Assembly (NCBI GenBank): GCA_030674455.1
Contig: JAUSGQ010000027.1
Span: 82,786 to 124,722, forward strand
From: a bacterium
GTDB taxonomy: Bacteria; Patescibacteriota; Minisyncoccia; Phycocordibacterales; UBA2100
Direction of reading: 5' to 3'
Length of the DNA: 41,937 bases
Position numbers and translations under genes: made by a program. The notes beneath the pieces are model-generated. The model searched no databases and was not told the origin of the DNA. It worked only from the letters and a program-made list of their open reading frames with translations. Shown piece after piece: positions 39,815 through 41,937 of the stretch. Position 1 is the stretch's first letter, and the number at the start of each line of letters is the position of its first letter.

Positions 39815-39862
39815 GAAACGTTTTGTAGTTGCTCAACAATATTGCTCTGTTGCGATAAAAAT

Positions 39863-39909
39863 CAGCAGGGGAGGAGATGTCAGCAGGGGAGGAGGCGTCA
39901 GGAACCTTT
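39863..39909 (+). repeat. Tandem 18 bp repeat plus R1, right copy
   Basis: CAGCAGGGGAGGAGATGT is followed directly by CAGCAGGGGAGGAGGCGT, and then CAGGAACCTTT completes R1 (39888-39909). Confidence 0.75.
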
Positions 39910-39914
39910 TCTCC

Positions 39915-39977
39915 ATATAGTTCGGCTACACGCCAATCGTAGGCACTCGATATCCACATTTTCTGCACAGGAAATCC
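39915..39977 (+). repeat. 63 bp direct repeat, left copy
   Basis: The word from ATATAGTTCGGCTACACGCC to CACAGGAAATCC is identical over 63 bp to 41361-41423. CCACATTTTCTGCAC at its right end also pairs with GTGCAGAATGTGG (40014-40026), giving an inverted repeat across the region upstream of the second AbiEi. Confidence 0.92.
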
Positions 39978-40063
39978 TCCTTCTTGACGTGTTCTTGCTA
40001 TTTTTGGGCTTTAGTGCAGAATGTGGACTGGATACTAGGTTTAAGCTAGTTTCCGGTTCAATT

Positions 40064-40651
40064 ATGGAAAAAGGTGACTACATGGAGTTGTTGTTACGCT
40101 CCGCAAATACCGTCTTTAGCGCCGGTGAGATTCTTTTATTGTGGGGACAGCCAGATAGCAAAGCTGCTCGCGCACGGATTAATTACTATGCAAAAAAAGG
40201 GAAACTCTATCGGGTTCGCAGAGGTCTCTACGCGAAAGATAAGAATTACAACAAGTTCGAGTTGGCTACGAAGATATTTACGCCGTCATACGTAAGCTTC
40301 GAAACTGTTCTCTTACAGGCGGGCATGATTTTCCAGTTCTACGGGCCTACCACGTTCGTCGCGTCGTACCTGAAGCGGGTGATTGAAGCTGACGGCACTT
40401 CCTACTCATATCGGAAGATAAAGAACGATATCCTCACTAATCACGCCGGAATCGAATTCAAGGATGGCTACTCGATCGCAACTCCGGAGCGTGCCTTTCT
40501 GGACATTCTGTACGCTTATAAAGATTATCACTTCGATAACCTGAACCCGCTTAATTGGGAAAAGGTACAGAGCCTCCTGCCAATCTATGGCGGTAACAAG
40601 CGTATGGAGAAGTTAGTGAAACGCCACCGTGAGTCAGCGAGCAAAACATAA
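40064..40651 (+). CDS. AbiEi-like antitoxin, second system
   Basis: I chose the ATG at 40064 (195 residues). A second ATG at 40082 has the better ribosome binding site (AAAGGTGA). The track start at 39842 would read through the repeats. The protein has a winged-helix N-terminus (TVFSAGEILLLWGQPDSKAARARINYYAKKGKLYRVRRGLYAKD) and an AbiEi C-terminal region (FTPSYVSFETVLLQAGMIFQF, YSIATPERAFLDILYAYKDY). It lies inside the 63 bp direct-repeat pair together with its partner toxin. Confidence 0.84.
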   Translation: MEKGDYMELLLRSANTVFSAGEILLLWGQPDSKAARARINYYAKKGKLYRVRRGLYAKDKNYNKFELATKIFTPSYVSFETVLLQAGMIFQFYGPTTFVASYLKRVIEADGTSYSYRKIKNDILTNHAGIEFKDGYSIATPERAFLDILYAYKDYHFDNLNPLNWEKVQSLLPIYGGNKRMEKLVKRHRESASKT

Positions 40652-40653
40652 TT

Positions 40654-41343
40654 ATGTCACTTGATACCGCGGCACATAGAAATATATTGCTACAAATCCT
40701 AAAGGATATTTATACCGATAGCACCATCGGTCCTATCCTCGGCTTCAAAGGCGGGACGGCGGCGTATCTTTTCTACACGCTAAACCGTTTCTCGATGGAC
40801 CTCGATTTTGACTTGTTGGATATTGGGAAGCAGGACTATGTATTCGAGCGTGTAAAGAAAATCCTTGCGGCTTACGGTGAGCTGAAACAACTCGACAAGA
40901 AGCATCACACGCTCTTTTATCTTCTCTCTTACGAACACAAAATCGCCGGGGCTAGGAATATAAAAATCGAGATAAATCTTCGCGATTTCGGTTCGAAATA
41001 CGAGGTTCGGCCGCCATATCTCGGTATTTCAATGAAAGTCATGACTCCGGCAGACATGTTCGCCCACAAGCTGGTGGCAATGACCGAGCGTACTACTAAC
41101 CGCGATGTATTCGACGTGCATTTCTTTCTCAAGAACAACTGGCCTATCAACGAAGAAATAATAAAGCTGCGCACAGAGATGTCGCTAAAAGATTTTCTCA
41201 AGAAATGCGTTCAGGATCTCGAGGCACGGGAACACGACGACATGCTCGGCGGCATGGGAGAGCTGCTTGATGAGAAGCAAAAAGCATGGGTGAAAACCAA
41301 TTTGAGAACTGACACGATTTTTTTGCTCAAGCTTAGACTGTAG
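40654..41343 (+). CDS. AbiEii-like nucleotidyltransferase toxin, second system
   Basis: The 229-residue protein has the nucleotidyltransferase core GFKGGTAAYLFYTLNRFSMDLDFDLL (GGT at 33-35, metal Asp at 49 and 51). KIEINLRDFGSKYE follows, then MTPADMFAHKLVAMTERTTNRDVFDVHFFL, the usual second half of the DUF1814 domain. It is compact compared with the 430-residue toxin upstream, so the two AbiE systems are from different branches. It starts 2 nt after the antitoxin stop. Confidence 0.86.
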   Translation: MSLDTAAHRNILLQILKDIYTDSTIGPILGFKGGTAAYLFYTLNRFSMDLDFDLLDIGKQDYVFERVKKILAAYGELKQLDKKHHTLFYLLSYEHKIAGARNIKIEINLRDFGSKYEVRPPYLGISMKVMTPADMFAHKLVAMTERTTNRDVFDVHFFLKNNWPINEEIIKLRTEMSLKDFLKKCVQDLEAREHDDMLGGMGELLDEKQKAWVKTNLRTDTIFLLKLRL

Positions 41344-41423: not shown

Positions 41424-41511
41424 CCCCTTCATGATGCTTGACAGAGAATTAGGGAAGCGTATGTTTCGAACTGGCCTAGCCGTCTACAGGCGAATCAGCA
41501 GATTTCGTGGC

Positions 41512-41557
41512 TTGGCCTGCCGATGCCAAACTCATCGGCCTCTCTCCGCCAGGCCAA
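41512..41557. repeat. REP-like hairpin in the 308 bp gap before the right-edge gene
   Basis: TTGGCCTG (41512-41519) pairs with CAGGCCAA (41550-41557), and CCGATG with CATCGG inside. The rest of 41424-41651 shows no convincing gene; the 68-residue track ORF has no coding character. Confidence 0.65.
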
Positions 41558-41651: not shown

Positions 41652-41937
41652 ATGCAAAATCTCCTCTCTCTCTCTCTTAAAGGAAATTAGAACACCGGTT
41701 TTTGTATTTGTAGCCGCAACGTTTATCGTCAGCGGTTTTTTTGTCGCTCCGAGCATGGCGTTAGCGGCGCATACGGCGACAGTGTCAGTTGCTCCAACAT
41801 TGGTGAAAGGAAATCAAAGTAGTACCTACACGTTTAATATTACCAACAATGGTGCGGATGCAATTTATAGAGCCATTGTAACGATACCGAGTGGGTTCAC
41901 CAGTGTCGCAAGTGCATCTTGCCCCACAGGGATGACA
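41652..41937 (+). pseudogene. Exported surface protein, start out of phase by one CT unit (runs off the right edge)
   Basis: The ATG at 41652 gives only MQNLLSLSLKGN and a stop. One frame over, an open reading frame to the window end reads KEIRTPVFVFVAATFIVSGF, ending in MALA, then a beta-rich domain (TVSVAPTLVKGNQSSTYTFNITNNGADAIYR). Adding one CT to the (CT)7 tract joins them into a perfect signal peptide with a basic n-region. No other start codon precedes the hydrophobic core in that frame. The gene is therefore either switched off by slippage or contains an assembly indel. The mature part resembles DUF11-type surface modules. Confidence 0.7.
41664..41677 (+). repeat. (CT)7 dinucleotide tract in the signal-peptide region
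   Basis: Seven CT units lie 9 bp after the ATG. Gain of one unit or loss of two puts the ATG in frame with the downstream surface protein. Confidence 0.8.

Follow-up and report, generated by a model that had tools for sequence, protein, structure and literature searches.

Can a short CT tract, located between the start codon and the signal peptide of an exported protein, switch this protein on and off in a bacterium of the phylum Patescibacteria? This question is raised by the 3' end of the window, i.e. the whole stretch of 41,937 nt analyzed in the present study (C63:82786-124722). Patescibacteria are mostly uncultured and are thought to live on other cells, and the source organism is a tiny, probably host-attached bacterium; to our knowledge, little is known about surface variation in this phylum. 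In a preliminary description, the locus was proposed to encode a phase-variable surface protein, and this proposal is well supported by comparison with other genomes, through tracts in the n-region of an orthologue and of unrelated surface genes, the recurrence of such tracts in certain gene classes and the even distribution of their reading frames. Herein, we propose that the locus is likely a translational phase-variation (contingency) locus controlled by slippage.

The CT tract and the displaced signal peptide

On the forward strand, ATG 41652-41654 opens a short frame (41652-41690) encoding MQNLLSLSLKGN, which ends at TAG 41688-41690 and is the product when the tract holds seven units. The (CT)7 tract at 41664-41677, proposed as the slippage switch, occupies codons 5-9 of this frame on the same strand. 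The presence of this tract is not due to chance: it is the sole (CT)7 in the window, and none was obtained in 100 dinucleotide-preserving shuffles of the window (expected number, 0.00). A second forward frame, open from 41641 to the contig end at 41937, encodes SKFVCKISSLSLLKEIRTPVFVFVAATFIVSGFFVAPSMALAAHTATV... / KEIRTPVFVFVAATFIVSGFFVAPSMALAAHTATV... and contains the signal peptide and a stretch with Ig-like homology. This frame has no start codon upstream of the tract, and neither ATG, GTG nor TTG occurs in it between TAA 41638 and ATG 41755, the latter located inside the signal peptide, which bears out the earlier view of ATG 41652 as the only plausible start. The signal peptide, LLKEIRTPVFVFVAATFIVSGFFVAPSMALAA, is encoded in the displaced frame at 41677-41769 (forward strand), and its G-F-F and ALAAH columns are invariant in five relatives. 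Cleavage would occur after ALAA, a region that is conserved in relatives, and the mature exported protein would then begin with the first Ig-like stretch at 41770-41937 (forward strand). The last letter of the window coincides with the end of contig C63 (124722 bp) in a source genome of 1.25 Mb and 66 contigs, and the exported ORF is therefore cut by the assembly, not by a stop codon; the locus is 260 bp from the contig end.

Because the length of a CT unit is not a multiple of three, changes in unit number toggle the downstream frame. When the tract was altered in silico from 3 to 11 units, ATG 41652 was joined to the signal peptide at 5, 8 and 11 units and left unjoined at 3, 4, 6, 7, 9 and 10 units. 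The offset between the start and the signal peptide is thus repaired by one extra CT, giving 8 units, as had been predicted, and the preliminary description was right on all of its sequence points. In the mechanism proposed here, translation would start at ATG 41652, and the (CT)n tract in codons 5-9 would gain or lose units in living cells through slipped-strand mispairing during replication. At every third length (5, 8 or 11 units) the start would be in frame with the signal peptide and the adhesin would be exported, and at other lengths, including the assembled 7 units, a peptide of about 12 residues would be produced, so that the assembled allele would be OFF. With seven units, the tract is short by the standards of highly mutable dinucleotide repeats. 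ATG 41652 lacks a Shine-Dalgarno sequence at the usual spacing, and by eye the same holds for some relatives; the sole promoter-like site, at 41438-41465, is at chance level.

Other features were also observed in this part of the window. A type IV toxin-antitoxin pair, consisting of AbiEii (PF08843, 3.5e-23) and an AbiEi-like protein (a weak match, below the cut-off), is located directly upstream of the CT locus at 39842-41343. A short REP-like repeat (GATTTCGTGGCTTGGCCTGCCGATG...) is present at 41500-41541 and recurs about a dozen times elsewhere in the genome.

The encoded protein and its orthologues

Among the 195 relatives searched, clear homologues of the window protein were detected in two genomes, both from other families of the order; their open frames span 2014 and 1311 codons. 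A third match (L013/G180) was spurious. In a scan of named genomes, homologues were observed in Nealsonbacteria, Wolfebacteria, Nomurabacteria and one unassigned Patescibacteria record, and all of these share the G-F-F...ALAAH end of the signal peptide and the Ig-like start. Over the signal peptide and the Ig-like start, the displaced frame is 43-53% identical to relatives with normal starts from Wolfebacteria, Nomurabacteria and Nealsonbacteria. The gene was not found in the same-genus genomes searched, and no relative was found in viral contigs. The 87 residues within the window gave no match in Pfam; the Nomurabacteria protein contains Big_5, Big_13, Big_12 and PKD-like domains, and strong domain matches to bacterial Ig-like repeat adhesin families were obtained in relative L031 and in C56, probably the same gene as that of the window.

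When the 1311-aa Nomurabacteria relative was compared with the source genome, its residues 16-96 matched the terminal part of C63 and those from 215 onward the terminal part of C56, and both segments of homology stop where these contigs end. By this homology, a 1,980-codon open frame on the reverse strand (C56:148227-154166), containing Big_12, Big_13, Big_5, Beta_helix and Ca_tandemer domains (the last being Ca2+-stabilised adhesin repeats), very probably continues the window gene. No overlap exists between these two contig ends, which leaves a gap of about 350 bp; the connection is one that we infer, strongly, from the relative. The gene product probably exceeds 2,000 residues and would be a surface adhesin with Ig repeats and an intact body, and the adhesin domains, together with general knowledge of the phylum, suggest that it might serve host attachment. 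The window contig and the assemblies carrying L028, L030 and L109 all end inside the family's first Ig-like stretch, a hint that repeats or differences between strains might lie shortly downstream.

One orthologue (L030, JAHIHE010000054.1), identified by protein homology alone, carries a TC tract of 23 nt between the ATG and the signal peptide; the two are in frame, and the N-terminus reads MNNQNKALKAISLSLSLSTNGF...LMSGFFVAVSPALAAHTATV. This tract lies at another distance from the hydrophobic core than that of the window and may therefore have arisen independently. The orthologues in G113, G122, G267 and G292, and L028, have normal starts and no tract, and the switch is therefore not conserved among orthologues of this protein.

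CT and GA tracts across the order and the phylum

Requiring an ATG no more than 30 nt from a CT tract proved unspecific, as 30 of 397 genomes gave matches and controls also matched fairly often, and the survey of the order was therefore conducted on tracts of at least eight CT units in 297 genomes, with no condition on gene, ATG or frame. Forty such tracts were detected in 30 genomes, and the context of each was read individually. Reverse transcriptase (RT) or bAvd genes hold 15 tracts, promoter-like spacers hold seven, the 5' ends of exported or pilin genes hold six (two of them less certain), an HsdS-like gene and a TIGR04325 methyltransferase hold one each, and ten are in no assigned class. 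Pfam and NCBIfam searches on representatives yielded bAvd (PF22296), RVT_1, N_methyl pilin, Methylase_S, beta-helix, Peptidase_S74 and TIGR04325, and the remaining RT and bAvd assignments were based on visible similarity to the GIPIGNLTSQ.FAN and RIENKFLDLLE motifs. One tract initially counted with the surface proteins (L062) belongs to an RT on the opposite strand and was dropped from that tally. Many tracts in the order thus sit in genes predicted to be classic contingency targets, namely those for exported proteins, pilin, HsdS, a methyltransferase and RT/bAvd of the diversity-generating retroelement (DGR) type. For CA, only two tracts of at least eight units were detected in 197 genomes, compared with about 25 CT tracts in the same genomes, a roughly tenfold lower frequency for CA. 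In a draw across the phylum, 17 tracts were obtained outside the source genome, at least eight of which are in RT/bAvd; one lies where an exported protein begins. This survey, being one of sequences, shows an association with gene class and not a function.

The reading frames were tallied for ten exported-protein and ten bAvd loci in which an ATG could be clearly recognized ahead of the tract. Eight of these 20 loci are in frame, six are off by one and six are off by two, a distribution that does not depart from uniform (p=0.82); free slippage fits these frames, and plain codon repeats, which would all be in frame, do not. A constant programmed frameshift was rejected, as it predicts a single offset and the +1 and +2 offsets are mixed. 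Among CT-sense surface loci, one of seven is in frame in its own assembly, although this sample is small. Tract length differs between species and paralogues, with one genome per species: congeneric genomes have a tract of another length at the same site, with 21 versus 19 nt in G328/G305 and 25 and 21 nt in the pair G167/G087, and paralogous surface genes in G336 share about 70 bp of near-identical flank around tracts of 17 versus 15 nt. In that genome, three paralogous surface proteins with an MKLK... start (L067, L068 and L069) have a TC tract after each ATG, and all three are out of frame in the assembly.

In DGR-type RT genes, (CT)n/(GA)n tracts were observed mid-gene (L088, L089, L103, L104, L073, L144, L145, L148, L149 and L152), just before the GIPIGNLTSQ.FAN motif. 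Other tracts are located between bAvd and RT, with divergent 5' ends (L075, L078, L090, L100, L101, L141, L143 and L151). The frames of the RT/bAvd tracts are mixed, and the data suggest that DGRs may be under phase-variable control across Patescibacteria. They likewise suggest that cells across the phylum might flip surface-protein and diversification genes on and off by repeat slippage. With slightly more belief than doubt, we hypothesize a phylum-wide set of CT/GA switches that would comprise surface proteins, pilins and specificity subunits as well as DGR RT/bAvd genes, turning a mutation engine on and off. The action of a phase switch on the DGR mutation engine would, if this hypothesis is true, be the most unexpected part of the set. 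The literature searched, which was incomplete, contained no report of such a switch in Patescibacteria or of phase variation of DGRs.

CT tracts also occur in promoter-like elements. The element TTGACT(CT)nGATTTGcGATAnT, in which the CT count varies between about 5 and 9, is present six times in the source genome (L134-L139), at C36:21062, C45:48827, C56:73616, C59:65034, C63:16315 and C63:63767, in most cases 40-85 nt before short ORFs. These elements are promoter-like, and the -35/-10 spacing would change with CT number. A promoter role was considered for the (CT)7 at 41664-41677 and rejected, the window having no TTGACT/GATTTG motif. A second family of promoter-like elements, again with CT units in the spacer, was observed in G346 (L099 and L118-L122): six copies of TTGACAA/G(CT)8-9 precede TGCTATAAT (in one case TGTTATACT), and several continue into very similar sequence.

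Alternative explanations and known systems

Three other explanations of the window locus were weighed against slippage control. The count of seven might be an assembly or sequencing error, such that the true number in the cell is 8 (or 5), with the gene simply on and the LSLSL run an ordinary hydrophobic n-region. The position near a contig end, the miscalling of dinucleotide counts in long-read data and the compatibility of LSLSL with a signal peptide would agree with this explanation; however, short reads easily cover a tract of 14 nt, and miscounts would not cause tracts to accumulate within and at the 5' ends of genes for surface proteins, RT/bAvd and HsdS, as they do over many independent assemblies with even frames. 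We therefore regard an error as unlikely. A fixed frameshift in a pseudogene at the start of decay appears very unlikely, despite the out-of-frame assembled allele and the failure to find the gene in same-genus genomes, because the rest of the N-terminus is stop-free and keeps its invariant columns, no stop interrupts the 1980 codons of the probable continuation and the lesion lies exactly in a slippage-prone tract.

Least probable of all is constitutive expression, either from a non-canonical start (ATC 41659 or ATT 41686) or through programmed ribosomal frameshifting or slippage of transcription on the tract. Transcription can slip on repeats, and AAAGGA at 41679-41684 resembles a Shine-Dalgarno sequence, but it is only about 1-2 nt from ATT; the frame offers no conventional start codon, and the equal numbers of +1 and +2 offsets at comparable loci argue against any single programmed shift. 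Slippage control of translation thus remains the preferred reading. Slippage switches can be read in existing metagenome reads, so bet-hedging in host attachment becomes testable without culture. Moreover, OFF alleles resemble truncated or start-less genes, and surface proteins and RTs are therefore probably under-called in annotation.

Several known systems resemble the window locus. Neisseria opa genes carry a repeat in the part that encodes the signal peptide, and a surface adhesin is switched through the resulting change of frame, as proposed here, although the unit is the pentamer CTCTT and the Opa protein is a beta-barrel. Neisseria nadA is described as a surface protein controlled by short-repeat slippage that alters promoter spacing (PMC2791445); this likeness is relevant to the TTGACT(CT)nGATTTG elements of the source genome, whereas nadA control acts on transcription and the window tract is inside a coding region. 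The hypervariable PTD-repeat surface protein of a Gracilibacterium (PMC6851277) is likewise a CPR surface protein with repeat-driven variability, but its 9-nt repeats are in frame inside the protein, with no start-frame switch. The closest known case is oipA of Helicobacter pylori, in which the number of CT repeats in the signal-peptide region sets the On/Off state through slipped-strand mispairing, sabA and babA being regulated in the same manner (PMC10564699). The oipA gene belongs to another phylum and encodes an unrelated protein, and its variation from isolate to isolate is documented, whereas the window locus is known from one assembly. The two loci have the same architecture: CT dinucleotides in a 5' signal-peptide region, a frame set by unit number and an adhesin, here a probable one, as the product.
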